Under the pieces are notes generated by a model that saw only the letters and a list, made by a program, of their open reading frames with translations, made no database searches and was not told the origin of the DNA. Below are positions 3,306 to 26,912 of a stretch of DNA of 31,476 bases, in pieces. A program made the position numbers and the translations under genes. The stretch is from a virus. The stretch is from positions 1 to 31,476 of the IMG/VR virus record IMGVR_UViG_3300032220_000675. The stretch is one strand, 5' to 3'. Numbering within the stretch: position 1 is the stretch's first letter; each line of letters begins with the position of its first letter.

Positions 3306-3452
3306 ATGAAGAAAAATCCAGAGGAATTACGCAGGCTTATGGAATTACGCCGTAGCAATGCAGCCTCTGCCGTACCCTCTAAGAAATCATACAACCGTAG
3401 AAAATGTCAGTCCGAACTGCTACAATTAAAAAACAACGAAAAAGGAGAATAG
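3306..3452 (+). CDS. Small basic protein (48 aa)
   Basis: A 48-residue, Arg/Lys-rich protein (LRRLMELRRS, KKSYNRRK), possibly nucleic-acid binding. It has no Shine-Dalgarno. Its ATG follows the -10 by 5 nt. The next gene's AAGGAG lies inside its 3' end. Confidence 0.6.
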   Translation: MKKNPEELRRLMELRRSNAASAVPSKKSYNRRKCQSELLQLKNNEKGE

Positions 3453-3457
3453 CCCCT

Positions 3458-3634
3458 ATGGGAAATATCGCAGATGAATTCTATGATGAATACTATGCAA
3501 CAACCTGCCCTGAATGTAAAGAAAATGCGGTAGACGCATATGAAGAAAAATGCACTCATTGTTTACTAGAAGAAATGTCAGCAACCTATAACGAAGACAT
3601 TGCTCTAGAAATGAGTCTTGGCCTTGACTACTAA
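3458..3634 (+). CDS. Zinc-ribbon protein (58 aa)
   Basis: C17-PE-C20 and C32-TH-C35 make a rubredoxin-type zinc ribbon. Start ATG 3458 is chosen because AAAGGAGAA lies 8 nt upstream. A longer in-frame start at 3404 would place that site inside the gene. The 3' end overlaps the following gene. Confidence 0.7.
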   Translation: MGNIADEFYDEYYATTCPECKENAVDAYEEKCTHCLLEEMSATYNEDIALEMSLGLDY

Positions 3635-4358
3635 TACATTTAAACTAAAACGCTCTAAAGATAGAAAGGTTGCTAATGCCGTCACACCTAATGGAAAACA
3701 AGCAAGTATCGCAAATACCTTTGGCCTCCCTGCTGGAAAGGCTTTCTCGTGTCCTGGTGCCACGAGTGTATGTGAATCCGTATGCTATGCAGGAAAACTC
3801 GAAAAGATCTTCCCAACCGTAAAAGTTAACCTGCTACACAATTGGGCCCTGCTAAAAGACGCAGACTATTTAACTATGCTTAATCTCATTGCTGAGATGA
3901 TTGCTGATTTCAAGGCAGACTGTATCAAGAAAGACGCTCCTATGCTATTCCGTATCCATTGGGACGGAGATTTCTTTAACGATACTTATACTACCGCATG
4001 GTCTGATGTAATCAAACTTAATCCTGATGTACAATTTTGGGTATACACTCGTGTGAAGGCTGCAGCACTAATCTTAAAAGACATTGATAATCTTAGTCTT
4101 TATTTTTCTGCTGATAGTGAGAATGTAAAAACTGCCGTTGATTTAAAAATTAACAGTGGTGTACGCATGGCATACCTTGCTAAGAATTTTGCAATTGGTA
4201 AGGCAGACATAAAAGAAATGATTGGTAAGCCTGCTGCTAAGTGTCCTGAGAATAATAAACAGATTCCACTTATCTCAACAAATGGAAGCGCTTGCGTTTC
4301 TTGCTCACTTTGTGTATACTCTAAGAGTGACATAATTTTTTCATCGAGTAAGAAATGA
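3618..4358 (+). CDS. GP88-like Cys-rich phage protein
   Basis: A protein of about 246 residues, TTG-started (TTG 3618, or TTG 3624 giving MTTNTFKLK). Visible features: a conserved N-terminal block (DRKVANAV, NGKQASIANTFGLPAG), then C45-PGATSV-C52-ESV-C56-YAGK, a central HWDGDFF motif, FWVYTRV, and C-terminal cysteines (KCPENN, ACVSCSLC). This matches my memory of the mycobacteriophage GP88 family, whose function is not established. The clustered cysteines suggest a metal or Fe-S centre and have been likened to radical-SAM proteins, which I cannot confirm. It overlaps the gene before by about 17 nt. Confidence 0.65.
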   Translation: MALTTNTFKLKRSKDRKVANAVTPNGKQASIANTFGLPAGKAFSCPGATSVCESVCYAGKLEKIFPTVKVNLLHNWALLKDADYLTMLNLIAEMIADFKADCIKKDAPMLFRIHWDGDFFNDTYTTAWSDVIKLNPDVQFWVYTRVKAAALILKDIDNLSLYFSADSENVKTAVDLKINSGVRMAYLAKNFAIGKADIKEMIGKPAAKCPENNKQIPLISTNGSACVSCSLCVYSKSDIIFSSSKK

Positions 4359-4364
4359 GATAAC

Positions 4365-4427
4365 ATGCGTAGTACTCAAGTTATACTTTTATTTTGGTTG
4401 TTGCTTCTTTTATTTTTCCACCAATAA
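4365..4427 (+). CDS. Single-span membrane micropeptide (20 aa)
   Basis: A 20-residue frame (MRSTQ then a run of L, F, W, V, I) that would form one transmembrane helix. It begins 6 nt after the upstream stop. Short and unverified, though similar peptides occur elsewhere in the window. Confidence 0.35.
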   Translation: MRSTQVILLFWLLLLLFFHQ

Positions 4428-4487
4428 AATAAAAGGGGCCACGTCGCCAAGATCGAGGTTTGTCAAGTTTATGATAGGCCTTTAAGA

Positions 4488-4560
4488 TGTGATTAAGGAC
4501 ACACCGCAAATCCCCCGCTGGATTGGTATTTATGACATTTTTCTGCTAGAATTATAGTAT
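4488..4560 (+). promoter_or_regulatory. CRP-like operator and promoter
   Basis: TGTGA-TTAAGG-ACACA (4488-4503, one mismatch in the right arm), then ATGACA (4532-4537) and TAGTAT (4555-4560), spacer 17. The gene starts at 4598 with an AGAAAGG binding site. Confidence 0.5.
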
Positions 4561-4597
4561 AAGCAATTAACCCCCACAACAGAAAGGCAAGACCCAA

Positions 4598-4768
4598 ATG
4601 ACACTACACGGATACACTTACCAAATTGGTGATTTATTCACAACAAGCAAGACAGGCGTTACAGGTCGTATCGCAGGATTTACACCAATGTCTAATAAGG
4701 TTACTAGAGTTAGCCTCATCTTGGCAAATGGCGCACAACGCCTTGCTATGGTCAAGACCTCTAAGTAA
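4598..4768 (+). CDS. Small beta-rich protein, tandem paralog A (56 aa)
   Basis: A 56-residue protein. It aligns with the next gene: YQIGDLFTTSKTGVTGRI here against YKVGDTFTTQKSKVTGVI there, with similar strands after it. Possibly a small SH3-like barrel. It has its own promoter (4532-4560). Function unknown. Confidence 0.7.
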   Translation: MTLHGYTYQIGDLFTTSKTGVTGRIAGFTPMSNKVTRVSLILANGAQRLAMVKTSK

Positions 4769-4829
4769 TCTCACAATGTGAGAAATGTTAGGTTTCGATT
4801 TGACATTTCTACAACTAAAATGTTATACT
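4769..4829 (+). promoter_or_regulatory. Palindrome and promoter of paralog B
   Basis: TCTCACA-A-TGTGAGA (4769-4783) is a perfect 7-bp inverted repeat right after the stop of the 4598 gene. Its half-sites are CACA/TGTG in everted order. TTGACA (4800-4805) and TATACT (4824-4829), spacer 18, follow. The palindrome may be an operator or a weak transcription end. Confidence 0.5.
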
Positions 4830-4874
4830 TAGGTATAACTAAATAACAACCCCTAAACAGAAAAGAGAAAAACA

Positions 4875-5039
4875 ATGTCAGTAGCAACAGCAACATACAA
4901 GGTCGGCGACACTTTCACAACACAGAAGTCAAAGGTAACTGGAGTTATTCAAGAAATTAACCCACTACCAAATGGTAATGTGCGAGTTAAGTTAGATGTA
5001 AATGGTTCAGCCCGTTACACAACTTGGACGGCTAAGTAA
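4875..5039 (+). CDS. Small beta-rich protein, tandem paralog B (54 aa)
   Basis: A 54-residue protein homologous to its upstream neighbour (GDTFTTQKSKVTG motif). It ends with an aromatic/Thr-rich strand (YTTWTAK). AAAAGAGAAA precedes the ATG. It has a separate promoter. A repeated hairpin follows the stop. Confidence 0.7.
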   Translation: MSVATATYKVGDTFTTQKSKVTGVIQEINPLPNGNVRVKLDVNGSARYTTWTAK

Positions 5040-5055
5040 TTTAATTACTAATTCC

Positions 5056-5078
5056 TGAGCAAGAATACAAACTGCTCA
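5056..5078 (+). repeat. Repeated hairpin R2
   Basis: TGAGCA / TGCTCA, perfect 6-bp stem with 11-nt loop AGAATACAAAC, 16 nt after the stop at 5039. It is followed by the leader of the 5121 gene. Confidence 0.65.
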
Positions 5079-5120
5079 ACACCCCCAACTAATACCCCAC
5101 AAAAGAAAAGAGATAAACAG

Positions 5121-5543
5121 ATGGCTAGAGCAAAAGCAATAAATGTAAAAATCCCAACAGTTCGAGTAATCGCAGGACTAGAGCAAGCACTTGCTACACT
5201 AGAAACAGACTACGCAACACAAAACGAAAAAGAAGCACAATACGAAATTGCTCGCAAAGCATGGCAGAAAGAAGTTATTGACTATGCCGTAGCAAACATC
5301 AGCAAAGCAGAAAACTTCCGCACTAACTATCGTCATTGGTCAAATAATCTTAACATTGACTTTGACTTAACAGTTACAGAAAAAGAAATGCCAACAGAGC
5401 CTGAGAAAGACTTTGAGACAATTCACCTCAGCACTTATCGTGAGTCAAAGAAAGAAATCTCAAACGCAATTCGTCTGCTAAAGATGACAGATGAGGAAAC
5501 AGTTAATACCTCAACCTACAACGCAATCGCACAGTACCTATAA
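5121..5543 (+). CDS. Conserved phage protein (140 aa)
   Basis: A 140-residue helical, Lys/Glu-rich protein, probably a coiled coil (residues 18-60). GAAAAGAGA precedes the ATG. It resembles early actinophage proteins of unknown function. No catalytic motif seen. No separate promoter is obvious, so it may be read through from the promoter at 4800. Confidence 0.7.
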   Translation: MARAKAINVKIPTVRVIAGLEQALATLETDYATQNEKEAQYEIARKAWQKEVIDYAVANISKAENFRTNYRHWSNNLNIDFDLTVTEKEMPTEPEKDFETIHLSTYRESKKEISNAIRLLKMTDEETVNTSTYNAIAQYL

Positions 5544-5654
5544 ATGAAATTGGGGGAGGCGTAAAAACCTCCCTCAACTTTCGCCAGGCTGATTAGGGCG
5601 ATAATAGAAATACTATAGAGCAAGGCTCCTGCAGGCCTAAAGAAGCAGACATCC

Positions 5655-5677
5655 TGAGCACGATCCAAAAAGGCTCA
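5655..5677 (+). repeat. Repeated hairpin R3
   Basis: TGAGC / GCTCA pair (the sixth pair is A-G) around the 11-nt loop CGATCCAAAAA. It lies in the gap between the 5121 and 5752 genes, 14 nt before a -35 element. Confidence 0.6.
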
Positions 5678-5690
5678 CCCTTAAGGGGAC

Positions 5691-5720
5691 TTGACAAATG
5701 TCAGTGGCGCCCTGTACAAT
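5691..5720 (+). promoter_or_regulatory. Promoter for the 5752 gene
   Basis: TTGACA (5691-5696) and TACAAT (5715-5720), spacer 18. It overlaps an apparent in-frame start at 5698, which rules that start out. GAAAGAGG then precedes the ATG at 5752. Confidence 0.6.
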
Positions 5721-5751
5721 TAAATTAAACCAACTACAGAAAGAGGCCCCC

Positions 5752-6180
5752 ATGGACCAAACAGAAGAATCAGTAACAGTAATACCAAACTCAACGCAAG
5801 AATTCTTTTTATCTCAAATTAAAATAAAGGATGAGCGCATTGTTCAACTAGAAGAGCACATCCAAAAGGTAACCCAGCGCTCTTATTCCGATTCAGCAGA
5901 CCGTAACCGTATGGTTGAGGGAATGAAGGACTGGACCCTTAGTGAACTAAGTAATGAAGACATCACTGAATCTCAAGCAGAACAAATTGCCGAAATCATG
6001 GGCTTTGAATTAACAACAGAGTTTGAATTAGAAGTTACAGTTCTTTATTCAGTTACTGTTAATGCTCGTGATGAAGAGTCTGCACAGAATGTAATTCACG
6101 ATATTGATTTTGATACCGTGCAATATGACTCAGATAATATTTCTTGGTTATCATCGAGTGTTGATAGAATAGATATTTAG
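5752..6180 (+). CDS. Conserved phage protein (142 aa)
   Basis: A 142-residue protein. An N-terminal coiled coil (about residues 15-45, RIVQLEEHIQKV) is followed by a beta-rich half (TEFELEVTVLYSVTVNAR, ISWLSSSVDRIDI). Actinophages often encode this two-part plan with no known function. Start chosen from the promoter and AAAGAGG. A repeated hairpin follows. Confidence 0.7.
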   Translation: MDQTEESVTVIPNSTQEFFLSQIKIKDERIVQLEEHIQKVTQRSYSDSADRNRMVEGMKDWTLSELSNEDITESQAEQIAEIMGFELTTEFELEVTVLYSVTVNARDEESAQNVIHDIDFDTVQYDSDNISWLSSSVDRIDI

Positions 6181-6241
6181 TAGGGGGCTACTAATACAAC
6201 TGGCCACCGTACAGCCAGTATAAATAAGTGGCGAAACATCC

Positions 6242-6264
6242 TGAACACGATGTAAAACTGTTCA
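6242..6264 (+). repeat. Repeated hairpin R4 (compensatory change)
   Basis: TGAACA / TGTTCA, perfect 6-bp stem with 11-nt loop CGATGTAAAAC. Relative to R1 and R2 both strands change together (G-C to A-T), which supports an RNA structure. Confidence 0.65.
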
Positions 6265-6281
6265 CTTTTTATTTTAATTTG

Positions 6282-6331
6282 CACGTGGGAGTTATCCACA
6301 GGTTTATCCACAGCCTGTGATTAAGATCACC
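6282..6331 (+). promoter_or_regulatory. Composite upstream module 3
   Basis: CACGTG (6282-6287), two direct TTATCCACA boxes (6292-6300 and 6304-6312) and TGTGA-TTAAGA-TCACC (6316-6331). Same order as the modules at 800 and 1879. Confidence 0.6.
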
Positions 6332-6372
6332 TTTAAGAAGTGTCCGAATTATCCCCTGTCTACCTATACGAT

Positions 6373-6401
6373 TTGACTTTGTCAGTCCTGTCTGCTAAAC
6401 T
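6373..6401 (+). promoter_or_regulatory. Promoter for the DUF932 gene
   Basis: TTGACT (6373-6378) and TAAACT (6396-6401), spacer 17, with GAAAAGAGAAA before the ATG at 6433. It lies inside the upstream extension of the reading frame, so the real start is 6433. Confidence 0.6.
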
Positions 6402-6432
6402 TAGTATAAACAACAACAGAAAAGAGAAACTC

Positions 6433-7449
6433 ATGGCACATGACCTAGAAACACAAAACGGCGTTGCATCATTTGCATCATTCCGTGAACCTGCTTGGCA
6501 TGGATTGGGTACTGTATTCACAGAAGAAAAAACTACATCAGAAATGTTGGCGCTTGCTAATCTTTCTAATTGGAATGTTCGTCTTGAAGATTTAACAGTA
6601 CCGACCCACTTATCATCAGATAAGAATTATCAATATGTATTGCGTACTAACCCTACAGATACAACACAGACCGACATTCTTGGTGTCGTTGGTGAGCGTT
6701 ACCATGTAATGCAGAATGAAGATTTATTCTCATTCGGTGACAACATTCTAGACGGCGGAGGTCGTTGGGAGACTGCTGGCTCAATTAAGGGTGGCCGTGT
6801 TGTGTTCGGTGCATTGGCACTAGAGCGTGAGACTGTCCTAGACCCTAGCGGTGTTGCCGATAAGGTAAAGACTTATTTACTTATCAACACATCACATGAT
6901 GGCTCAATCGCTATTCAAGCAAGCATCACACCTGTTCGTGTTGTGTGCGCTAACACTCTCAATCTTGCTCTTGGCTCAATCAAGAAAAAGAATGGCGTTA
7001 AGCAATCATTCAAGATTCGTCACACACAGACTGCAAGCGGTAAGGTTGCCGTTGCTCGTGAGACTCTTGGAATGGCTAACAAGTACATGGACGCATTTGA
7101 TATTATGGCTAAGGCTATGATTGAAAAAGAAGTCAATGCTAAGCAATTCAATGATATTGTATTGGCTGCATATGCAAAACCAGAAACAGATGCTAAGGGT
7201 TCGCTAAAAAAGTGGGAGAATAAAATTGATTCAATCAATGATATTTACACAGGCGAGTTCAATGGTATGATTGCTGGTAGCGCATGGGGTGCTTTCAATG
7301 CACTAACTGAGCGCCTTGACTGGTATCGTTCTGCTCGTGGTGGTTCTAACGAATCAATCCTTGCATCAGCATCAGGATTTGACCCTGCTATCAACGCAGA
7401 AAAGAATCGTTTGCTAAAAGTTGTACAGAATGTAATGCAACTCGCATAA
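6433..7449 (+). CDS. DUF932 / phage-plasmid-like protein
   Basis: A 338-residue protein matching the DUF932 (phage/plasmid-like TIGR03299) family. Recognisable blocks: FREPAWHGLGTVF at residue 16, GVVGERYHVMQNEDLFSFGDNIL near 83, GGRVVFGALAL, and SITPVRVVCANTLNLAL near 160, typical of the family core. The C-terminus (GSAWGAFNALTERLDWYRSARG) is also typical. Members occur in phages, plasmids and near CRISPR loci, and their molecular role is unknown. It has its own operator module and promoter upstream. The start is set by the promoter and AAAGAGAAA site. A repeated hairpin and tRNA-Asp follow. Confidence 0.9.
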   Translation: MAHDLETQNGVASFASFREPAWHGLGTVFTEEKTTSEMLALANLSNWNVRLEDLTVPTHLSSDKNYQYVLRTNPTDTTQTDILGVVGERYHVMQNEDLFSFGDNILDGGGRWETAGSIKGGRVVFGALALERETVLDPSGVADKVKTYLLINTSHDGSIAIQASITPVRVVCANTLNLALGSIKKKNGVKQSFKIRHTQTASGKVAVARETLGMANKYMDAFDIMAKAMIEKEVNAKQFNDIVLAAYAKPETDAKGSLKKWENKIDSINDIYTGEFNGMIAGSAWGAFNALTERLDWYRSARGGSNESILASASGFDPAINAEKNRLLKVVQNVMQLA

Positions 7450-7627: not shown

Positions 7628-7714
7628 TTACGATAGTCAAACCTTTTCCCCAAAAATGTCAAACCATAAAATCTTTACGATAGAGTTGACATTTCCCCCA
7701 AACCATGCGATAAT
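7628..7714 (+). promoter_or_regulatory. TTACGA repeats and leaderless promoter
   Basis: TTACGA at 7628 and 7675, each followed after 11 nt by TTTCCCC (7645-7651 and 7692-7698). The second overlaps the promoter TTGACA (7686-7691)/GATAAT (7709-7714), spacer 17. The ATG at 7721 is 6 nt past the -10. The motif recurs near 10722, 10756, 11089 and 13240. Confidence 0.55.
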
Positions 7715-7720
7715 TAATAC

Positions 7721-7885
7721 ATGACCCAAACAATGAGAACGATTGATGAACTAGTCAATGAGATGTACATGGACAATGAGCCACATCTCGAATACATGGA
7801 GAATATGAACGGTGGGGATTGTGATTGTAACATCCACACTACCTTGAATACAATAGTCAAATACTGGTGGGATGAGGAGAACTGA
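7721..7885 (+). CDS. Hypothetical acidic protein (54 aa)
   Basis: A 54-residue, Met- and acid-rich protein with C34-D-C36 and H39. It has no Shine-Dalgarno, so the leaderless promoter sets the start. Its stop overlaps the next ATG (TGATG). Confidence 0.6.
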   Translation: MTQTMRTIDELVNEMYMDNEPHLEYMENMNGGDCDCNIHTTLNTIVKYWWDEEN

Positions 7886-8165: not shown

Positions 8166-8442
8166 GTATACATTTGTTTGTGACCCTGATGAGTGTGATG
8201 CTCTTCTTGAGTTTACCGCCAGGGATGGCTATGGATTCCCCAACGGATCTGTAGAGATGAAATGCCCATGTGGACGCTGGATGGCTTATATTAGCATTGA
8301 AGAGGTTTGGTCCCCCATCATTGATACTATAGAAATGCTTAATGATTTTAAGAAGCAAGCAGGCATAGCCATAGACTCCTTAGATGTGACGAAGGTCACA
8401 CCCCCAAAACTTGTAAAAATCAACTCAAACCCCTATAATTAA
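8155..8442 (+). CDS. Hypothetical protein with Cys motif (95 aa)
   Basis: A 95-residue protein (MWSKYTF start) with C9, C14 and C37-P-C39-G, a likely zinc-binding module. An in-frame ATG at 8140 is the alternative start. Its 3' part contains the operator and -35 of the next gene. Confidence 0.6.
   Translation: MWSKYTFVCDPDECDALLEFTARDGYGFPNGSVEMKCPCGRWMAYISIEEVWSPIIDTIEMLNDFKKQAGIAIDSLDVTKVTPPKLVKINSNPYN
8385..8439 (+). promoter_or_regulatory. CRP-like operator and leaderless promoter inside a gene
   Basis: TGTGA-CGAAGG-TCACA (8385-8400), TTGTAA (8411-8416) and TATAAT (8434-8439), spacer 17. The ATG at 8446 is 6 nt past the -10. The operator ends 10 nt before the -35, matching the arrangement at 3246-3300. 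Confidence 0.6.
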
Positions 8443-8445
8443 TAT

Positions 8446-8601
8446 ATGGACCTAAAAACATTCCGAGAATATATCCGATTGCATGCCATATCCCTTGAAC
8501 AGGATTTGGAAAACGAGGACGGTGCTGATAGCATTGTTCCTTATCTTGAAGGAGCCATTAATGTATCCCGCCACTATTTGGAGGTAACCAATGAGCGATA
8601 A
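8446..8601 (+). CDS. Hypothetical protein (51 aa)
   Basis: A 51-residue helical protein (FREYIRLHAISLEQDLEN). Leaderless start. Its end contains GGAGGTAACC, a strong ribosome binding site for the overlapping gene at 8591. Confidence 0.6.
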   Translation: MDLKTFREYIRLHAISLEQDLENEDGADSIVPYLEGAINVSRHYLEVTNER

Positions 8602-10669: not shown

Positions 10670-10796
10670 CACGTGCATTCATATTGAATAACAAACCATC
10701 AAACCTTATAGCCAAAAGACATTACGAACCTCCAAATCTTTCCCCCTCCAGAACATTACGATCCAAACCTTTGTTTCCCCAAACTAGGTGTATACT
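10670..10796 (+). promoter_or_regulatory. Non-coding stretch: CACGTG, TTACGA elements, promoter
   Basis: CACGTG (10670-10675), CAAACC repeats, TTACGA at 10722 and 10756, each followed by TTTCCCC 11-12 nt later, then TATACT (10791-10796). No good -35. The ATG at 10803 follows the -10 by 6 nt. Confidence 0.5.
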
Positions 10797-10802
10797 TTAT
10801 AT

Positions 10803-11030
10803 ATGAGTCCAAGACATTTTGCAAACCTTTATAAGCAAACCTCCCATCGCCATGATAGCCCAAGTGATGGTGATATATTTAATAGAGACTTTGGTGCTCT
10901 ATGTGGTATGTTGTATTCTATTGTTACTCTTAAGGCTTTCTTTCCTAAGTCCCCCGCCCCAGCGATGACTGATAGTCCTATCACTGACGGCATCGGCGGG
11001 GATCAAGAAGAACAAAACAAACCCCTATAG
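10803..11030 (+). CDS. Hypothetical protein (75 aa)
   Basis: A 75-residue protein (MSPRHFANLYKQ). An upstream in-frame GTG at 10788 overlaps the -10, so the leaderless ATG 10803 is preferred. N-terminal half is basic. No family recognised. Confidence 0.55.
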   Translation: MSPRHFANLYKQTSHRHDSPSDGDIFNRDFGALCGMLYSIVTLKAFFPKSPAPAMTDSPITDGIGGDQEEQNKPL

Positions 11031-11321: not shown

Positions 11322-11356
11322 TGTGGATAAACCTGTGGATAACTATTTGATATACT
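11322..11356 (+). promoter_or_regulatory. Two DnaA-like boxes and leaderless promoter
   Basis: TGTGGATAA at 11322-11330 and 11334-11342 (reverse TTATCCACA). The second ends 8 nt before TATACT (11351-11356), so it lies in the spacer. The ATG at 11363 is 6 nt after the -10. Confidence 0.55.
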
Positions 11357-11362
11357 TGGTAT

Positions 11363-11482
11363 ATGACAGAACAAACCGAAGAAAAGATCCCAGGATACAA
11401 GCAAATCCCTCCTGATTGGTGTGATGATTGCACTGTTCAAGACAGTGTTTGTACAATATGTGGCTGTAGCCATAACTGCTAA
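11363..11482 (+). CDS. Cys-rich mini-protein (39 aa)
   Basis: A 39-residue protein with C20, C23, C30, C33, C35 and C39. Likely zinc-binding. Leaderless start. Function unknown. Confidence 0.6.
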   Translation: MTEQTEEKIPGYKQIPPDWCDDCTVQDSVCTICGCSHNC

Positions 11483-11610: not shown

Positions 11611-12159
11611 TTATGAAATAAAACCTAAACTGTCTCTAAACCTATATGCTTCATCAAGCATTGGGTTATTTGGAATTGCAAGGTGAGAGTAATCTGACAA
11701 ATTATCTGGATTTAAAAACCTTACAAACATCATCCTGACATACTCTCCTTCTTTAAAATGCTTTAAAACCCTCCAATGAATTTCTTTATTTGCATTAAAG
11801 ATTAAGGCACAGTTATCCTCTAACTTATAAGTTTCTAGGTTTAACCCTATATCCCAAACGGTATTAGACTCTAATTGTATACTAACAATCAGGTCATTAG
11901 TGTCTCCATCAAAATGAGGATTTAGTTCAGGGTTTCCATATAAAAGGCTATATTCTACAGACATGGCAGAGCCCATCTCTAAAGGTTTGCCAATCTCCTT
12001 TAGTTTCTCAATAGTCTCTGGGAGTAGTAGGCTTTCTAAATCACGAACCTGAATCCTGCCTAACTCATTATCAATAATTGTTGGGCTTTCTGATATTATT
12101 TTCTTTATATGATCTATTTCTTTTTTTGAAAAAATATTATTTATTCTTGTTATTGACAT
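11611..12159 (-). CDS. 2OG-Fe(II) oxygenase-like protein
   Basis: A 182-residue protein with the double-stranded beta-helix pattern of Fe(II)/2-oxoglutarate oxygenases. H82-F-D84 and distal H128 (IHWRV) would bind iron. R142 (GEYVRMMF) would bind 2-oxoglutarate. It hydroxylates an unknown substrate. This copy is the most diverged of the seven here. The -10 (TACAAT, 12166-12171 reverse) is 6 nt before the ATG, so leaderless. It shares a divergent promoter region and a DnaA-like box with the gene at 12213. Confidence 0.75.
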   Translation of the reverse strand: MSITRINNIFSKKEIDHIKKIISESPTIIDNELGRIQVRDLESLLLPETIEKLKEIGKPLEMGSAMSVEYSLLYGNPELNPHFDGDTNDLIVSIQLESNTVWDIGLNLETYKLEDNCALIFNANKEIHWRVLKHFKEGEYVRMMFVRFLNPDNLSDYSHLAIPNNPMLDEAYRFRDSLGFIS

Positions 12160-12165
12160 ACAAAT

Positions 12166-12206
12166 ATTGTACCATAATTGACCTGTGGATAACTCTATGA
12201 TATGAT
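12166..12206. promoter_or_regulatory. Divergent leaderless promoters around a DnaA-like box
   Basis: Minus: TACAAT (12166-12171). Plus: TTGACC (12178-12183), spacer 17, TATGAT (12201-12206). The box TGTGGATAA (12184-12192) lies right after the plus -35, inside its spacer. Both ATGs are 6 nt from their -10. Confidence 0.6.
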
Positions 12207-12212
12207 AGATAT

Positions 12213-12401
12213 ATGTTAGATATCAGAGGCATCCCAACACCTGCATGTCCTTGTTGTGGCTCTACACTCTTAAGGGTTACTGTAGAGTTTGATCCAGACA
12301 CCTATGAAATCGCAGGGTATTTATTAGATGATGCTCAATGCATGGAGTGTAAGTGCCTTATCACTGCACCTACTCCATTAGACCATCCAGACTATGTATA
12401 A
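12213..12401 (+). CDS. Conserved zinc-ribbon actinophage protein (62 aa)
   Basis: C12-P-C14-C15 and C43-ME-C46 with the ending TAPTPLDHPDY. This is a familiar actinophage small protein with a zinc ribbon and a FDPDTYEIAGYLLDDAQC block. Leaderless start. Function unknown. Confidence 0.75.
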   Translation: MLDIRGIPTPACPCCGSTLLRVTVEFDPDTYEIAGYLLDDAQCMECKCLITAPTPLDHPDYV

Positions 12402-12433
12402 CTCTGTTGACCATAATGTGATAAAATAGACCA

Positions 12434-12586
12434 ATGGACAGATTCGAATCATCATATAACAAATTCTCTTTAGGCTATACAAACCCTATGATAAATGTCC
12501 TATGCTATGAATGTGGTGGTATGTATCAAACCCAGTATGGTACAGAAGATGTTACAAAACAATGTCCAAAATGCGACGGCAAATAA
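12434..12586 (+). CDS. Zinc-ribbon mini-protein, MDRFESSY paralog 1 (50 aa)
   Basis: Starts MDRFESSYNKF, with C24-YE-C27 and C44-PK-C47. A paralog at 14511 begins MDRFESSYSKF, so the gene was duplicated. TAAAAT (12422-12427) is 6 nt before the ATG. Role unknown. Confidence 0.65.
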   Translation: MDRFESSYNKFSLGYTNPMINVLCYECGGMYQTQYGTEDVTKQCPKCDGK

Positions 12587-12631
12587 AGATTACGATACAC
12601 CAGACACCTCACCCTATGGTATGATATATAC

Positions 12632-13231
12632 ATGGATAAAATTATAGAAGCCTCCAACAACAAGACATATGCCCTATTTAGGGGGCTATGCAAAGATGTG
12701 CCTAACTGGTCAGATTTCATAGAAAACTTTGATTATAACTACAATAGAGATAAAGACAAAAATAAAAATAATCCAGACCGTAGATACCTTACAGACTACA
12801 TTGTGGTTTACAATAAATTTGACCCTATCATCTTTGATGCTATAGAAGACAAAACCACTAGACTATTTGATAAGTCACTAGAGGCACAAAGCCTTATAAA
12901 AGGTTTGATAAAAAAGGAAATCAGTTCAATTAAAAGTATTATTAACTTCCTAGGCAATGAGCAGGAATACTGGATCCATAGTGATAACCACGATGTTGTC
13001 TCCTGGCACTGTGTTGGTACCATTGAGTGGAGATTCTATAAAAATGTTAAAGAAGAGGATATGGAGAAAATAAGCATTGAAGGTGCCGAGTATGACTCCG
13101 TAGTCCTTGAACCAGGAGATGTGGTATATGTGCCTGCTGGGGTGGTACATCAGGTTATTAATAACAAACCTAGAGCATCTTTAGTATTTCAATATTTTCC
13201 AGATCCTGACGCTATAGGGAATACTTACTAG
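12632..13231 (+). CDS. JmjC/cupin-like putative oxygenase
   Basis: A 199-residue protein with a cupin fold signature: H116-S-D118 followed by VVSWHCVGTIEWRFY, then LEPGDVVYVPAGVVH with H173. This fits the HxD...H iron-binding triad of JmjC/cupin_8-type oxygenases (as in ribosomal oxygenases). Such enzymes hydroxylate protein or small substrates with 2-oxoglutarate, and the target here is unknown. Homologous to the C-terminal half of the gene at 20638. Leaderless promoter (TATGAT, 12620-12625). Confidence 0.7.
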   Translation: MDKIIEASNNKTYALFRGLCKDVPNWSDFIENFDYNYNRDKDKNKNNPDRRYLTDYIVVYNKFDPIIFDAIEDKTTRLFDKSLEAQSLIKGLIKKEISSIKSIINFLGNEQEYWIHSDNHDVVSWHCVGTIEWRFYKNVKEEDMEKISIEGAEYDSVVLEPGDVVYVPAGVVHQVINNKPRASLVFQYFPDPDAIGNTY

Positions 13232-13239: not shown

Positions 13240-13281
13240 TTACGATCCTTTCTTGACATCCCCCGCAATTTCTGATACAAT
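13240..13281 (+). promoter_or_regulatory. TTACGA element and leaderless promoter
   Basis: TTACGA (13240-13245), TTGACA (13253-13258), a C5 run in the spacer, and TACAAT (13276-13281), spacer 17. The ATG at 13288 is 6 nt after the -10. Confidence 0.6.
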
Positions 13282-13287
13282 CAATAC

Positions 13288-13572
13288 ATGAACCAATTTA
13301 TGCAAGACTATGCCTCATGGGTCCTCGCTGTCATTGGGGTCTCAGGTATATATTTTGTTGGCCGTAAGAGTTTCTTCGGCTGGTATATTCTTCTATTCAA
13401 TGAAACTTTGTGGATAGGCTATGCTGTTGTTACAAAACAGTACGGGTTTATATTCTCAGCCCTTGCATATGCAGCAGTATATATTCAATCACATAGGCAC
13501 TGGAAGGCTTTAGATAAAGAACAGTTGTCTTGGAGGAGTTTTGCCAAGTTAGTTTGGGATCGCAATGATTAA
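13288..13572 (+). CDS. Membrane protein (94 aa)
   Basis: A 94-residue protein with about three hydrophobic spans (residues 8-25, 30-48, 51-67) and a charged C-terminus. The motif SGIYFVGRKSFFGWYILLFN resembles small membrane proteins of actinophages whose role is unknown. It overlaps the next gene by 8 nt. Leaderless start. Confidence 0.7.
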   Translation: MNQFMQDYASWVLAVIGVSGIYFVGRKSFFGWYILLFNETLWIGYAVVTKQYGFIFSALAYAAVYIQSHRHWKALDKEQLSWRSFAKLVWDRND

Positions 13573-14004: not shown

Positions 14005-14033
14005 TTGACAATTTTTTCGCCTAATGGTATGAT
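14005..14033 (+). promoter_or_regulatory. Leaderless promoter
   Basis: TTGACA (14005-14010), 17-nt spacer, TATGAT (14028-14033). The ATG at 14040 is 6 nt past the -10. One of the clearest examples of the type. Confidence 0.7.
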
Positions 14034-14039
14034 GTATAT

Positions 14040-14198
14040 ATGAACACTATGAAAGTAAAGGTTGAGATCAATCCTGCTACTGGACAATGGAGGTATTACG
14101 ATTCCGTTATACAGCAATACTCATCTGAGGAATGGCCAACCAGGAAGAAAGCCTTTGCTATGTCAAATAAATATTACGATGTGATGTATAAACCATGA
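14040..14198 (+). CDS. Hypothetical protein (52 aa)
   Basis: A 52-residue basic protein rich in Tyr and Lys (YDSVIQQYSSEEW, NKYYDVMYKP). Leaderless. Overlaps the next gene by ATGA. Confidence 0.55.
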   Translation: MNTMKVKVEINPATGQWRYYDSVIQQYSSEEWPTRKKAFAMSNKYYDVMYKP

Positions 14199-17750: not shown

Positions 17751-18311
17751 ATATTTTGGAACTTTTATTTTTTCATATATTCCATTTGAATAAGAATATC
17801 GAACTCCTGATGTAACTTTAAGGACTTCGTGAGTGCAATGATCTTCTGCGCTATGAATAACTAAATCACCTGGCTCTGGTTTATAAGTAATTGACTGGTT
17901 TGGGTATCTAAGTTCTCCACCACCAAAATCGTTTATATAGGTAACAGTACCAAAAATGTTATTATTTTTTAATATAAATTCTTCTCCTTCTTTTAAAAGC
18001 AAACTTTGTTTTCTTACATCTAAAAAGGCATCATTGTCTGCATGTAGACCCCAGGTATCTCCTATGCTTAATATATTCATGGTGCTACAATTTGTAATAT
18101 GATATGGATCTTTTACTATTTGTTTAATTTTATTATATATAATAGTAAGACTTTTAATTTCTTTACTAGTATTTTTAGTATCCCACAAGGATTCTTTCTT
18201 TAAATTAATTTCATTATTTATGGTTAACAAATCTTCATTAGATAAAAAATTTTTATATACGTATATGTCTTCACCAATTTGAGTTAAATTATTTAAATTA
18301 AAAGGTATCAT
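17739..18311 (-). CDS. 2OG-Fe(II) oxygenase
   Basis: A 190-residue protein. H90-A-D92 and H161 for iron, R171 (SGVRYSYS) for 2-oxoglutarate, with GGGELRYPNQ and KPEPGDLVIH between, as in prolyl-4-hydroxylase-like phage enzymes. Target unknown. TATAAT (18318-18323 reverse) lies 6 nt before the ATG. Shares the intergenic region with the gene at 18387. Very close in its C-terminal core to the one at 19847. Confidence 0.85.
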   Translation of the reverse strand: MIPFNLNNLTQIGEDIYVYKNFLSNEDLLTINNEINLKKESLWDTKNTSKEIKSLTIIYNKIKQIVKDPYHITNCSTMNILSIGDTWGLHADNDAFLDVRKQSLLLKEGEEFILKNNNIFGTVTYINDFGGGELRYPNQSITYKPEPGDLVIHSAEDHCTHEVLKVTSGVRYSYSNGIYEKIKVPKYLAI

Positions 18312-18317
18312 ATTTAC

Positions 18318-18379
18318 ATTATATCATTATTCGCTGTCAAAATTATCAATTTGACACAGACTTTAATTTTTGATATAAT
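18318..18379. promoter_or_regulatory. Divergent leaderless promoters
   Basis: Plus: TTGACA (18351-18356), spacer 17, TATAAT (18374-18379), ATG 18387 (7-nt gap). Minus: TATAAT (18318-18323), 6-nt gap to the ATG at 18311. A reverse TTGACA (18335-18340) sits closer than usual. Confidence 0.6.
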
Positions 18380-18386
18380 AGATAAT

Positions 18387-18836
18387 ATGAAACCAACAGC
18401 ACATATATACGATGTAGACGGAACGCTTGCCAATATAGATCCCTATCTGCACTATGTTCGTGGCTCTAATAGGGACTACGATGCCTTTCATGAGGCTTCT
18501 ATAGATGCCCTGCCAAATGTAAATGTTTTAGAAATGTTAAATAATTCTGTTAGTGATGGTCATTCTATCCTTGTTGTTACTTCACGTAAAGAGAAATATC
18601 GTGGACTTACATCTATGTGGCTTGCTAAAAATAATATTAGATCTCATGGTTTATTTATGAGGGCAGATAACGATAATAGACCAGACTATGAAGCAAAAAA
18701 AGATATGCTTGATAAAATAACTTTACTATGGAATGTAACTCATGCTATAGATGACAATCCAAATGTGATAAGACTATGGGAAGATCACAACATTGCTACA
18801 ACCAAAATAGGAACATGGGATGGGCAAAAGTCTTGA
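18387..18836 (+). CDS. HAD-superfamily phosphatase, Pnkp 3'-phosphatase-like
   Basis: A 149-residue protein. D9-V-D11-GTLANI is the catalytic DxD of HAD phosphatases. VVTSRKEKYR fits motif II, and DMLDKI ... HAIDDNPNV motifs III/IV. It resembles the phosphatase domain of phage polynucleotide kinases but lacks the kinase domain. It may process 3' ends of cut RNA or DNA. The start at 18387 is set by the promoter; an earlier in-frame TTG at 18351 is the -35. Confidence 0.75.
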   Translation: MKPTAHIYDVDGTLANIDPYLHYVRGSNRDYDAFHEASIDALPNVNVLEMLNNSVSDGHSILVVTSRKEKYRGLTSMWLAKNNIRSHGLFMRADNDNRPDYEAKKDMLDKITLLWNVTHAIDDNPNVIRLWEDHNIATTKIGTWDGQKS

Positions 18837-18861
18837 TATATATACTTGAATATGGTATGAT
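18833..18861 (+). promoter_or_regulatory. Leaderless promoter
   Basis: TTGATA (18833-18838), 17-nt spacer, TATGAT (18856-18861). ATG 18868 is 6 nt on. Confidence 0.6.
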
Positions 18862-18867
18862 TAGTTT

Positions 18868-18996
18868 ATGAGCAAACGAGTTAAAAAAATTTATAAATGC
18901 GTTGAGTGTGAGACTATGATTACTATTGTAACAAAAGTTCACGAACTACCCGAATCAATTATTTGTCCTTGTGACAACGTAGCAGAAAGCCAGTGA
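18868..18996 (+). CDS. Zinc-ribbon mini-protein (42 aa)
   Basis: C11-VE-C14 and C33-P-C35. Basic N-terminus (MSKRVKKIYK). Leaderless start. Function unknown. Confidence 0.55.
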   Translation: MSKRVKKIYKCVECETMITIVTKVHELPESIICPCDNVAESQ

Positions 18997-19846: not shown

Positions 19847-20563
19847 TTAAGAAATGTAAGGAAGTTTTTCTCTTTCAACCATTTCGTCTGGTAATATAAC
19901 CAGTTGATCATTTTTCTTTAGTGGGTCTAGCCAAGTTTCTTCTATACGAGAAGGGTCCGCTGTTTGAAGTTTATATTCTTCAGTACCATAATTGTTAAAA
20001 GTTCCTGGATTTTTAATTGCTTCTAAACAAAAGTTTGAATATGAGTATCTTGATCCAGAAAGGACTGGTTTAACTCCATGAGCATAATCTTCTAATGCGC
20101 CATGAATAACTAAATCCCCTGGCTGAACGGGTATAACTATGTCTTGTTTTGGATAAAAAACTTCTCCTCCAGTAAACTCCCCAAAGTAAACACAAACTCC
20201 AAATTCTAATAGGCAACATGTTGACCATATGTCTGGTAATGTTAGGTTTTCATGATTTCCTTCACCAGGACTATCCCAATGAGGTTCCATTCCTGCGCCC
20301 TCTTTATAATGAAGCATGCTTAACAATGGGTGAACAACATATTGTGGAGCAAGTAGTTCAGAAACCTTTACCCAAACAGGAAAAACTTCTGGGATAGATT
20401 CTGTGACACCATAGTTTACTACTCCAAATGGATGTTTTGTAGATTTATCTTCTCGCTCTTTTAATATTTTATTTACAAAATCAACCTCTTCCTTACTAAT
20501 AAAATTAGGAATGTAATAGAGTTTCTCGTCTAGCCTTTGAAGGTTTGGATGTGATATAGTCAT
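19847..20563 (-). CDS. 2OG-Fe(II) oxygenase
   Basis: A 238-residue protein (MTISHPNLQR). H95-W-D97, H162 and R172 for iron and 2-oxoglutarate. TGGEVFYP and QPGDLVIHGA as in the others. A C-terminal extension of about 60 residues (after 180) is unique. TATAAT (20570-20575 reverse) is 6 nt before ATG 20563. An upstream ATG at 20581 is less likely. Target unknown. Confidence 0.85.
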   Translation of the reverse strand: MTISHPNLQRLDEKLYYIPNFISKEEVDFVNKILKEREDKSTKHPFGVVNYGVTESIPEVFPVWVKVSELLAPQYVVHPLLSMLHYKEGAGMEPHWDSPGEGNHENLTLPDIWSTCCLLEFGVCVYFGEFTGGEVFYPKQDIVIPVQPGDLVIHGALEDYAHGVKPVLSGSRYSYSNFCLEAIKNPGTFNNYGTEEYKLQTADPSRIEETWLDPLKKNDQLVILPDEMVEREKLPYIS

Positions 20564-20637
20564 GACTTTATTATAGCACAATTTTTAGACTATACTTCAA
20601 TATATTCCCGACTTTAGGCCTATGGTATAATTGTAAT

Positions 20638-21420
20638 ATGAGACAATGCACCTGTGGTAGGTCAAAAACCTATCCCTATTGTGACAATACTCACAAAACA
20701 AAGGTAAATTCTGAAGATCTCACCCTCTCCTCAACCGACAACAACATAAGAGAAACTATACTATCAAAAATGAAAGAATCAGATAAAACTGGCAAAGTTT
20801 TATTTTTAAAAGGTTTTATGAGTCAATCTCCTGAATGGGGTGATTTTGTTGGCTTAATAAATCATCAATATAATAACCCAATAATTGATGAAGTAAGTGA
20901 AGATATCTATGATAAATCAAAAAAAGAAGAACATGGGGATCACGGGCCAAAGATTTTGTTAAATAATAACAACAAAAGTACAAACATGTATTCATTAAAA
21001 AAATTAGATTTACATGTTTTACGTATAAAGCAAATACCTCCTCTTGAACATAGTTGGTACAACATGCCATATCTTGATAATTTTTTATCTATATTCTATA
21101 AACAGGATATGCTAAACACTGTAAAGTCTTTAATAAATTTTGCTGGAAATGAATATGTTGGAACTGGTCATTCAGATAGGCAGTCTGTCGTTTCTTGGAC
21201 ATGCGCTGGAGAAGTTGAATATAGAATTTATCATATTAAAAACAGTACAGAAAGAGATTCATTAACTTATGAACAACAAAGAACTTTGACTTATGATTCA
21301 TACATTATGAGACCTGGAGATGTTATGTATATACCTATTGGTGTTTTTCATAGTGCTGTTGCAACTTTTCCAAGGGCATCTTTAATTTTAGACTATGATG
21401 CTTTAAATATACAAGGATAA
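20638..21420 (+). CDS. CDGSH iron-sulfur domain fused to JmjC/cupin-like oxygenase
   Basis: A 260-residue protein. Residues 4-19 read C4-x-C6-x2-S-x3-P-x-C15-D-N-T-H19, the CDGSH [2Fe-2S] motif with N for G. Residues 50-260 match the gene at 12632: H178-S-D180, SWTCAGEVEYRIY, RPGDVMYIPIGVFH (H238), RASLILDY. The fold would bind Fe(II). The C-terminal half may act as an oxygenase while the CDGSH unit gives electrons or senses redox. Leaderless promoter (TATAAT 20626-20631). Confidence 0.75.
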   Translation: MRQCTCGRSKTYPYCDNTHKTKVNSEDLTLSSTDNNIRETILSKMKESDKTGKVLFLKGFMSQSPEWGDFVGLINHQYNNPIIDEVSEDIYDKSKKEEHGDHGPKILLNNNNKSTNMYSLKKLDLHVLRIKQIPPLEHSWYNMPYLDNFLSIFYKQDMLNTVKSLINFAGNEYVGTGHSDRQSVVSWTCAGEVEYRIYHIKNSTERDSLTYEQQRTLTYDSYIMRPGDVMYIPIGVFHSAVATFPRASLILDYDALNIQG

Positions 21421-23578: not shown

Positions 23579-23619
23579 ACAACTAACACATTAACTGTAA
23601 AGTGTAGTATAATGGTTTT

Positions 23620-23763
23620 ATGGAATCAAATATCTGTAAAGTTTATGAACATATTTTTAGTGTAGATAAAGACAGTGTTCTCAAGTGTGAAAAATGTAAC
23701 AAAACATATATGCAATATATGGATGAGATTGAAGAGCATCTTAAAGGATATAGAAAGTTTTAA
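23620..23763 (+). CDS. Zinc-ribbon protein, cassette paralog 2 (47 aa)
   Basis: C6, C23-EK-C26, H11, and an acidic helix (YMDEIEEHLKGYRKF). It is homologous to the 16186 gene. Leaderless (TATAAT 23608-23613, 6 nt). It ends 8 nt from the stop of the convergent peroxidase-like gene. Confidence 0.65.
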   Translation: MESNICKVYEHIFSVDKDSVLKCEKCNKTYMQYMDEIEEHLKGYRKF

Positions 23764-24681: not shown

Positions 24682-25259
24682 TACTTTACCAACTTAAATG
24701 GAGAATCAATCCAACTATCTGATTTAGCAACTGGTATGCAGTTTGGTACTGGCTTTCCGTCTGCTCCTGGCTTCATTCCTCTTTGTACATAGCCATCCCA
24801 GCAAGGTGCTTGCTTATTTACATTCCCGCAACAGTCTGATTTCATTTCTCCAGCCTGACACTGTGGGCATTGCTCACAAGTTACATTTAATTCTTTGCAC
24901 ATTGGACAGCCACAACCTTCGTATGCTTTTCCAATTGATGAATCATACATTGCCATTGCAACTTCTGAGTCTGTTGAACTAAACTCTTCTGTAACAACAT
25001 CTCTTTCAACTTTAAGAGATTCAATCTTAACAAGCATTGAAGCCTTGTGCCCAGAAAGAATCATCTCTGCTTCCCATGTGCCATCTTCTTCTTCAAAGTG
25101 TCTTACAAGTACTGCAGGCTCTTCCATTGATGCCTCTAGTGCATACTCTGATCCAGGAATACCAAACATTCCTTCTGTCATTACATACTCTACTTGGCCA
25201 ACAATTGGCTTGTCATCGTACCCTTCAGGGCACATTACAAAATCGCCTTCTTTTAACAT
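24681..25259 (-). CDS. Phage protein with SH3/Tudor-like start and Cys clusters
   Basis: A 192-residue acidic protein. The first 90 residues (GDFVMCPEG, EYVMTEGMFGIPGS, EASMEEPAVLVR) resemble an SH3/Tudor-like domain seen in phage head-maturation proteins. Next come C-x-C-PM-C and C-x2-C-PQ-C near 115-135. The C-terminal GYVQRGMKPGADGKPVPNC is common at the end of phage protease or portal-linked proteins. It could be an assembly accessory protein. TATACT (25266-25271 reverse) is 6 nt before the ATG. Confidence 0.6.
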   Translation of the reverse strand: MLKEGDFVMCPEGYDDKPIVGQVEYVMTEGMFGIPGSEYALEASMEEPAVLVRHFEEEDGTWEAEMILSGHKASMLVKIESLKVERDVVTEEFSSTDSEVAMAMYDSSIGKAYEGCGCPMCKELNVTCEQCPQCQAGEMKSDCCGNVNKQAPCWDGYVQRGMKPGADGKPVPNCIPVAKSDSWIDSPFKLVK

Positions 25260-25276
25260 ATTAATAGTATACCATA

Positions 25277-25543
25277 TTAACCAGCAAGCCTATTGTGAGT
25301 TCTTATCCTGTGACAGTTAGCACAGACAACTTCACATTTTTCAATCTCTTTCTTAATAGCCTTCCATGAAAAACCATCATGGATCATTCTGGATACATTG
25401 TATTTCTTGTCCCTTATGTGATCAAAGTCTAGGATTATATGGTTACCAACACCACAGTCTACACAGCCAGAATCCTCTTTTATCTTAGCAAGCATCTTCT
25501 TATACTGCTGCTTGTTATAGGTGTCCAACTCTTTGTCAGTCAT
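25277..25543 (-). CDS. HNH endonuclease
   Basis: An 88-residue protein. C-VD-C (27-30), the DFDHIRDKKYNVS core, and C-AN-CHRIRTHNR near the end make an HNH zinc finger nuclease. It may cut DNA at phage or host sites, or help with packaging. TATAAT is 7 nt before the chosen ATG (25543). An earlier ATG (25552) overlaps the -10. Confidence 0.85.
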   Translation of the reverse strand: MTDKELDTYNKQQYKKMLAKIKEDSGCVDCGVGNHIILDFDHIRDKKYNVSRMIHDGFSWKAIKKEIEKCEVVCANCHRIRTHNRLAG

Positions 25544-25574
25544 TATTATCATTATACCGTGAAAATATTAAGGC

Positions 25575-25654
25575 CCCACACAGGCAATTCACCTGACTTG
25601 CGCCACGGTCTCTATCCAATGGGTAACTAATCCATCACTAAGGTCCTGTGTGGG
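25575..25654. repeat. Perfect inverted repeat enclosing 60 nt
   Basis: CCCACACAGG (25575-25584) and CCTGTGTGGG (25645-25654) could form a 10-bp stem. The inside has ACCT/AGGT and ATGG/CCAT pairs. It lies between the HNH gene and an oxygenase gene, and codes nothing obvious. It may be a structured RNA, a target site or a terminator. Confidence 0.5.
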
Positions 25655-25674
25655 ACAATTAAATTATATCATCA

Positions 25675-26214
25675 TTACATGTATAGGCTACTGTAACAAT
25701 CTTTTGTGTATACTTTATTTGTAGTAAAACAAAATGTCATGGCATACCTGACTCCACTTGTAACTTCTTCAACATAGTGCATAGACTCATCTCCATGAGA
25801 TGGAAAAGTTATTGCAACACCTTTTGATGGTTTTATTTTAACAATAATTTTTTGATTTGGAAAGACAATTTGACCACCTTCATATTCATCGTCAAAATAA
25901 ACTAGCATACCAAGAATATCTTCATCACAACCTTTTTGAATATCAGAATGCAAGCACATATCATCTCCTATATTATATTTCACAATTGATGATGAGTGAA
26001 TGTATATATCTTTTTCTAATATTTTTTTTATTTTTTCAGTATAGAGTGAAACAAGAGTAAGGAAATCTAAATCATACTGATCCTGAAATAATGTTGTATA
26101 CCTATCTCCCTTATTGTTACCTCTATAAAGACCTTCTAATTTTTTAAATATTTGTAAAGCATAAACAATTTCTTCTTCTGTAGTAAAATTATAATATTGT
26201 TTTATCATTATCAA
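25675..26214 (-). CDS. 2OG-Fe(II) oxygenase
   Basis: A 179-residue protein with H89-S-D91 and H146 for iron and R156 (SGVRYAMT). EGGQIVFPNQ and KPSKGVAITFP mark the core strands. AAGG lies 7 nt before the ATG at 26214. It overlaps the small gene upstream, so translation may be coupled. Target unknown. Confidence 0.85.
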   Translation of the reverse strand: MIMIKQYYNFTTEEEIVYALQIFKKLEGLYRGNNKGDRYTTLFQDQYDLDFLTLVSLYTEKIKKILEKDIYIHSSSIVKYNIGDDMCLHSDIQKGCDEDILGMLVYFDDEYEGGQIVFPNQKIIVKIKPSKGVAITFPSHGDESMHYVEEVTSGVRYAMTFCFTTNKVYTKDCYSSLYM

Positions 26215-26296
26215 CCTTATATATTAAATCTGAAGAAGTTCCAAAATATCCAGATGGCAAAACTGACAGTCTGTTAGGGTCAAAGTCATTATTCAT
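26189..26296 (-). CDS. Small protein upstream of an oxygenase (35 aa)
   Basis: MNNDFDPNRLSVLPSGYFG... from ATG 26296. TATAAT (26303-26308 reverse) is 6 nt before the ATG. Its end overlaps the 26214 start by 26 nt. Might be a leader peptide or partner of the oxygenase. Confidence 0.5.
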   Translation of the reverse strand: MNNDFDPNRLSVLPSGYFGTSSDLIYKVDNDKTIL

Positions 26297-26336
26297 GTAT
26301 ATATTATAGCAGTTTCTAGTATGATATAATTAATAT

Positions 26337-26912
26337 ATGCATATATCGAGACCATTTAATAATGAAATTGTCGTAGTTGAAAACTTTTTGACTCAAGATG
26401 AGGCTGACTACATTCTTGATTTAGCAACAAAAGACATTTCCTTGTGGGATGCCTCAAATGATGGATCTGGACTTACAGAGCAATATGGCAATAGGCTACA
26501 AATTGACGAATACAATTTAAGAGATAGGTATCGTGACTACAATTGGTTCTTTAAAATGCTTGAAGAAAGAGCAAAGCCGATATTTTCTAAAGAATATGGT
26601 ATTTCAGATTTTTCTTTTTTACCAATAACCTCAATTTTTAGAAGAATGGGTCATGGACTGGATGTTCATACTGATGAAGTTGATAAAGATCACCCTCAAT
26701 ATGATGCATCTCTACCAATTATTACTCACGGTTTTGTAGTTTATATTAACAATAACTATAGTGGTGGAGAAATTTTTTATCCAAATAAAAATATAATTAT
26801 GAAACCAAAGGCTTTGTCTTTAGTTATGCATCCTGGAAATAAAGAATACGAGCATGGAGTTAATGACGTAACGAAAGAAATAAGATATAATCTTGCTTGG
26901 TGGACTAGATAG
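26337..26912 (+). CDS. 2OG-Fe(II) oxygenase
   Basis: A 191-residue protein with H111-T-D113, H173 and R183 (EIRYNLAWW). SGGEIFYPNKN and KPKALSLVMHPG mark the core. TATAAT (26325-26330) is 6 nt before the ATG, so leaderless. The intergenic region is divergent with the small gene at 26296. A multi-hairpin stretch follows. Confidence 0.85.
   Translation: MHISRPFNNEIVVVENFLTQDEADYILDLATKDISLWDASNDGSGLTEQYGNRLQIDEYNLRDRYRDYNWFFKMLEERAKPIFSKEYGISDFSFLPITSIFRRMGHGLDVHTDEVDKDHPQYDASLPIITHGFVVYINNNYSGGEIFYPNKNIIMKPKALSLVMHPGNKEYEHGVNDVTKEIRYNLAWWTR

Follow-up and report, generated by a model that had tools for sequence, protein, structure and literature searches.

Promoter −10 elements placed six nucleotides before ATG predict leaderless mRNAs in a group of freshwater actinophages

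The window, i.e. the whole stretch of DNA analysed here, is the IMG/VR virus record IMGVR_UViG_3300032220_000675, with 31,476 bases and a guanine plus cytosine (GC) content of 36%. It is a fragment of a group of freshwater actinobacterial phages of 110–119 kb. The virus is taken as an actinophage because it carries, at 28801–29082 on the minus strand, a gene of the WhiB family, which is used as an actinophage marker (PMC10202952, PMC9878933), and actinophage core genes are also present; its GP88 gene (3618–4358) finds matches in hundreds of IMG/VR contigs and in Mycobacterium and Streptomyces phages. Genes led by Shine-Dalgarno (SD) sequences occupy a module at 1–7449. A preliminary description made from the sequence alone had listed 24 other starts, on both strands, at which a −10 box would be followed by 6 nucleotides (nt) and ATG, and had predicted that their mRNAs are leaderless. 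The layout formed by the −10 box, the 6-nt gap and the ATG is the subject of this work, and it is confirmed as a real and conserved feature of the window.

All 24 listed coordinates correspond to the ATG of open frames of 35–260 amino acids (aa), and an SD-like match was found at none of them, as had been claimed. A general E. coli sigma70 matrix, untrained on this phage, served to score the −10 hexamers (threshold of at least 5.2 bits). Exactly 6 nt separate such a −10 from the ATG at 20 of the 24 starts, and 5–7 nt at 23, the three deviating gaps being those already described (Table 1). Dinucleotide-preserving shuffles of the same 50-nt upstream sequences (2000 trials) gave a mean of 0.72 (maximum 4) at gap 6 and of 2.06 (maximum 9) at gaps 5–7, so that the sharp 6-nt peak persists against shuffled controls. 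Since the listed starts had been hand-picked, every ATG opening an open reading frame (ORF) of at least 35 aa was also scanned; mechanical ORF scans and orthologues were relied on, as a simple gene caller overlooked many short genes of the window. The unselected scan rendered 22 starts at gap 6, while other gaps had a mean of 2.2 and a maximum of 5, with gap 5 at the background level, and starts with GTG and TTG showed no gap-6 peak in the window. Two weak candidates had been overlooked in the list, at 14319 on the plus strand (TAGAAT) and at 28162 on the minus strand (TAAAAT). The −10 was said to be of the TAnnnT type, which stands for most of the listed starts and fails at 7721 (GATAAT); a TANNNT that begins about 12 bp ahead of the start codon appears above background. 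The starts were also placed in a region of single genes, and this is true in part, as some of them lead short operons (e.g. 7721 and 13288).

With a GC content of 36%, TATAAT-like words could precede any ATG by chance. The probability of this is negligible, and base composition is ruled out as the origin of the peak by the shuffles (0.72 vs 20), by the other gaps (2.2 vs 22) and by phage T4, which at 34% GC shows no peak (1 vs 5.3). No gap-6 peak was found either in T7, lambda, BFK20 or Anthony, and therefore AT-richness alone is insufficient; the gap-6 count of PA6 was not significant.

The layout is maintained in relatives. In the orthologue comparison, which counts distinct upstream sequences gene by gene, it is conserved for most genes (Table 1), the letters of the spacer between the −10 and the ATG varying freely while the −10 and the gap persist. 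Six relatives were examined as whole contigs, five of them of about 109–119 kb; their matches to the window run round the contig ends, for which reason these five look circularly permuted. All six present the gap-6 peak (22–28 vs 5.2–7.7 at other gaps), again with ATG only; DnaE-like hits of 913–952 aa and other very long gap-6 hits look like internal ATGs and were counted as background, not as support. The preliminary description had limited the layout to the middle region. Within this fragment that holds, given that orthologues of the genes of the 1–7449 module never have it, and the predicted division between SD-led and leaderless modules is conserved. For the phage group it does not hold: in the relatives, gap-6 starts are also found before tail-region genes, including tail-type and phrog_1084 matches, and the gene at the gap-6 start 47056 of G005, located between the capsid and tape-measure genes, matches gp196 of Streptomyces phage Paradiddles. 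This phage belongs to the Stanwilliamsviridae and shares with the relatives TerL (54% identical), DnaE (51%), the portal (47–48%) and the major capsid protein (MCP, 43%), with structural genes in similar order; the comparison covers these genes and their order in the relatives, the window itself lacking TerL, DnaE and MCP genes. Paradiddles has a higher GC content, a different host and fewer leaderless starts: its gap-6 peak is weaker (10 vs 1.85) and includes the annotated starts 21772, 28774 and 42963, and its gene at 32284, leaderless in the group of the window, is SD-led with a leader.

The sequences around the −10 have the anatomy of promoters. In the window, the −10 is extended (TG one base upstream) at 19 of the 24 listed starts, and seven have a match of at least 5/6 to TTGACA at 17–18 bp. 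In a pool of 528 distinct gap-6 starts the TG is found in 54%, compared with 12% in a control with gaps of 9–29, and −35 elements (at least 5/6 match to TTGACA) concentrate at exactly 17 bp, with 108 cases; in a thinned set of 302 starts, T occupies position −15 in 61% and G position −14 in 71%. AU-rich upstream sequences aid SD-less initiation in some bacteria, and on that ground the TA-rich element could be a translation enhancer on a longer mRNA instead of a promoter. This is very unlikely, in view of the close match to TATAAT, the fixed spacing, the TG at −15/−14 and the TTGACA at exactly 17 bp, as well as of the elements arranged back to back in divergent intergenic regions of 29–57 bp, where each gene needs a promoter.

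Directly before the ATG, leaderless gene starts carry T in 69% and C in 16% of the cases, whereas SD-led starts carry A in 51%. Bacterial RNA polymerase usually prefers a pyrimidine at −1 and a purine at +1, and the pattern is therefore independent evidence for +1 at the A of ATG. The earlier prediction of leaderless mRNAs with +1 at this A is thus well supported by the gap peak, the conservation between orthologues, the −35 and extended −10 context and the T at −1. Sigma70 promoters vary by 1–2 nt in where they initiate, and at three of the listed starts the gap is 5 or 7 nt; hence real promoters could initiate 1–5 nt before the ATG and produce very short leaders, not strictly leaderless mRNAs. 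We consider this quite unlikely, since the gap is sharply 6, gap 5 does not exceed the background and the T at −1 followed by A at +1 is consistent with initiation at that A. A phage sigma factor creating a special promoter class was also considered and rejected: Sigma70 region 2 was not found in 12 relatives, other kinds of factor not having been searched for, and this points to the sigma of the host.

We propose that the elements are, very probably, host sigmaA-type promoters joined to start codons, giving leaderless mRNAs. In the model, RNA polymerase would bind the −10 together with a TTGACA −35 at 17 bp, an extended TGn −10, or both. RNA synthesis would begin at the A of ATG, and the resulting leaderless phage mRNA would be translated by a leaderless pathway already in use in actinobacteria. 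The phage group would employ this layout for many single genes or short operons of the accessory region and for some genes of the tail region, and ordinary SD leaders for the module at 1–7449. The benefit would most likely be compactness along with easy exchange of gene cassettes: all expression signals would be contained within about 30–45 bp ending at the ATG, and two divergent genes could share 29–57 bp.

Divergent leaderless genes are frequent. There are 39 distinct pairs, separated by 29–74 bp and nearly all by 57 bp or less; those of the window are 12159/12213, 14963/15019, 20563/20638 and 26296/26337, the pair 18311/18387 being left out of the list for its gap of 7 on one side. A conserved bidirectional element has exactly 48 bp in eleven phages (L023, L025, L051, L054, L058, L078, L080, L081, L085, L093 and G002) and its counterpart in the window, at 14964–15018, has 55 bp. 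It consists of a leftward −10, one base, a rightward TTGAC −35 and, 17 bp on, the rightward −10. The gene to the left always encodes a T5orf172/GIY-YIG-like protein of 103–110 aa (weak Pfam match, E 0.05), while those to the right belong to ten unrelated groups across 14 phages (the eleven 48-bp elements and three length variants), among them a methyltransferase, a pyrimidine-dimer glycosylase and a sulfotransferase-like protein. In G001, about 96% identical to the window in this part, the promoter of gene 14040 adjoins the ATG of the gene located one further on in the window. These arrangements are suggestive of short two-way leaderless promoters acting as exchange sites. Cassette exchange as a peculiarity of leaderless starts is not supported as exclusive: start-precise swaps were found in 8.4% of the pairs behind SD-led starts compared with 14.7% behind leaderless ones, and in both sets short proteins make the 'unrelated' calls unreliable.

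Putative DnaA boxes are associated with some of these promoters. The perfect consensus TTATCCACA has nine copies in the window (Table 1), with 0.39 expected, all of them outside called genes, and it is depleted from genes in seven sequences (50 of 54 copies outside called genes). In the relatives, TGTGGATAA occupies a fixed place within the spacer of 16 distinct leaderless promoters, its first base lying exactly at −29. As a lead only, DnaA might repress the leaderless promoters that carry a putative box in the spacer. A wider and tentative idea is that the accessory region is built of minimal leaderless promoters ending at the ATG that serve as gene-exchange sockets, where the spacer boxes of a subset could tie expression to DnaA or replication; we hold it possible, although on balance doubtful.

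A regulatory purpose had also been suggested, namely that leaderless mRNAs let these genes escape the control of ribosome binding or suit stress-altered ribosomes, which is compatible with host-type promoters joined to start codons. In E. coli, leaderless mRNAs respond to the state of initiation factors and initiator tRNA (PMC9031893), and the conserved division between SD-led and leaderless modules fits such a purpose. Nonetheless it is unlikely: (i) in M. tuberculosis, leaderless and leadered mRNAs show no systematic difference in protein/mRNA ratio (PMC7148126); (ii) late tail genes have the layout too, and (iii) leader status changes between orthologues: for genes 13565 and 8591, before which the window shows no obvious promoter, 13 of 29 and 21 of 40 relatives, respectively, carry a leaderless promoter that belongs to the gene itself.

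Some observations weigh against the proposal of host-type promoters that start at the ATG. The +1 positions are predicted from the sequence, and the choice of start could spread by 1–2 nt. The layout is weakly conserved, if at all, for 18387 (1/4) and 26337 (4/12), in the latter partly because distant paralogues were aligned. Three of the five low-GC actinobacterial genome samples have no gap-6 peak; in the search for a host, the matches of AhpC were mostly to Burkholderiales genomes, with one to an actinobacterial metagenome-assembled genome, and the tRNA search gave weak matches only. Finally, compactness and exchange as a rationale are not unique to leaderless starts, given the start-precise swaps behind SD-led ones.

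Table 1. Predicted leaderless starts of the window, with the SD-led contrast module and DnaA-box copies; the gap between −10 and ATG is 6 nt unless indicated, and fractions refer to orthologue upstream sequences
Feature	Position	Strand	Remarks
−10 TAAGAT, gap 5, ATG of 3306 ORF	3295..3308	+	TTGACA at 18 bp; 35/53 distinct orthologue upstreams keep −10 at 5–7
−10 GATAAT, ATG of 7721 ORF	7709..7723	+	TTGACA at 17 bp; 17/33
−10 TATAAT, ATG of 8446 ORF	8434..8448	+	40/43 at 5–7
−10 TATACT, ATG of 10803 ORF	10791..10805	+	22/22 at exactly 6
−10 TATACT, ATG of 11363 ORF	11351..11365	+	TGTGGATAA boxes upstream; 5/5
−10 TACAAT, ATG of 12159 ORF	12157..12171	−	Divergent from 12213, 53 bp between ATGs; 5/7
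−10 TATGAT, ATG of 12213 ORF	12201..12215	+	TTGACC at 17 bp; DnaA-box-like TGTGGATAA in spacer
−10 TAAAAT, ATG of 12434 ORF	12422..12436	+	3/3
−10 TATGAT, ATG of 12632 JmjC_2-domain gene	12620..12634	+	
−10 TACAAT, ATG of 13288 ORF	13276..13290	+	TTGACA at 17 bp; 9/11
−10 TATGAT, ATG of 14040 ORF	14028..14042	+	TTGACA at 17 bp; same promoter adjoins a different ORF in close relative G001
−10 TATAAT, ATG of 14963 T5orf172/GIY-YIG-like gene	14961..14975	−	Left half of bidirectional promoter; 26/26 at exactly 6
−10 TATACT, ATG of 15019 methyltransferase-like gene	15007..15021	+	Right half of bidirectional promoter
Extended −10 (TGATATAAT), ATG of 15804 ORF	15792..15806	+	No −35; 13/14
−10 TATAAT, ATG of 18311 2-oxoglutarate (2OG)-Fe(II) oxygenase gene	18309..18323	−	7/10
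−10 TATAAT, gap 7, ATG of 18387 HAD/PNKP-phosphatase-like gene	18374..18389	+	TTGACA at 17 bp; only 1/4
−10 TATGAT, ATG of 18868 ORF	18856..18870	+	5/6 −35 match at 17 bp; orthologues 4/4
−10 TATAAT, ATG of 20563 2OG-oxygenase-like gene	20561..20575	−	Divergent from 20638; 6/9
Extended −10, ATG of 20638 CDGSH/JmjC_2 gene	20626..20640	+	3/4
−10 TATAAT, ATG of 23620 ORF	23608..23622	+	
−10 TATACT, ATG of 25259 ORF	25257..25271	−	3/4
−10 TATAAT, gap 7, ATG of 25543 HNH endonuclease gene	25541..25556	−	4/4 at gap 7
−10 TATAAT, ATG of 26296 ORF (35 aa)	26294..26308	−	Left half of bidirectional promoter
Extended −10 (TGATATAAT), ATG of 26337 2OG-oxygenase gene	26325..26339	+	40 bp between divergent ATGs; 4/12
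Contrast module, SD-led genes with leaders (1065, 2096, 2960, 4598, 4875, 5121, others)	1..7449	+	−10 at gap 5–7 in 0/45–69 distinct orthologue upstreams per tested gene
TTATCCACA copies	810, 1889, 6292, 6304, 11322, 11334, 11486, 11600, 12184		

The region contains several other genes of note. Genes of the 2OG-Fe(II) oxygenase type are found at 17739–18311, 19173–19838, 19847–20563, 26337–26912 and 30464–31087, and 25675–26214 may be a further one. Two proteins (12632–13231 and 20638–21420) belong to JmjC_2 (PF08007), a family that includes ribosomal oxygenases, and one of them starts with a CDGSH iron-sulfur motif. A stress and redox set, at 22499–23547, 16338–17024, 23771–24394 and 27037–27441, comprises an AhpC and CMD-family (AhpD-like) pair, two glutathione-peroxidase-like genes and HSP20, the AhpC being closest to Burkholderiales sequences (about 66%). 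Five tRNA genes are scattered along the window (7492, 11523, 22268, 22346 and 24478), at least those at 11523 and 22268 directly downstream of a TATACT-type −10.

The layout resembles that of the TA-led leaderless genes of Actinobacteria and Deinococcus-Thermus (Zheng et al. 2011, PMC3160421), in which a TANNNT likewise begins about 12 bp ahead of the start codon, the SD sequence is absent and the signal is of the host sigma70 type. It differs from them in belonging to a phage group and not to a cellular genome, in a fuller TATAAT consensus (low GC), in the use of ATG only and in the many back-to-back divergent pairs. The surveyed Actinobacteria average about 19% of leaderless genes (PMC3160421), and the gap-6 peak is also present in two of the five low-GC actinobacterial samples of genomes (a count of 10 in G018 and of 12 in G024), which weakens the earlier view that such use is striking in a phage. 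In phages, the promoter also sets +1 at the start codon in lambda cI and in the predicted leaderless gene 90 of mycobacteriophage Adephagia (PMC11373665). Those are isolated genes, whereas here the layout recurs over many unrelated genes and is conserved across a phage group; in an incomplete search of open-access papers, only single leaderless phage genes were found described. The bidirectional promoters of E. coli (Warman et al. 2026, PMC12825309) use, as here, a short DNA for divergent transcription, and mutually exclusive binding of polymerase is expected. They have one shared −10 and start sites mostly 10–23 bp apart, whereas in the phage group the two directions rely on separate −10s, and 29–57 bp lie between the start codons and therefore also between the predicted start sites; a shared symmetric −10 with starts at about 10–23 bp was not found in the divergent pairs.

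The leaderless layout thus adds a new case, in phages, to a trait already known from actinobacteria, and is not a new mechanism. Phage gene finders that seek SD sequences will misplace or miss these starts; lake actinophages need a leaderless model in gene finding, and the rule of −10, 6 nt and ATG can help to call short genes. The phage group also offers natural examples of very short two-way promoters, and Streptomyces phages of the Paradiddles type provide a cultured system in which the importance, if any, of leaderless translation in infection could be examined.

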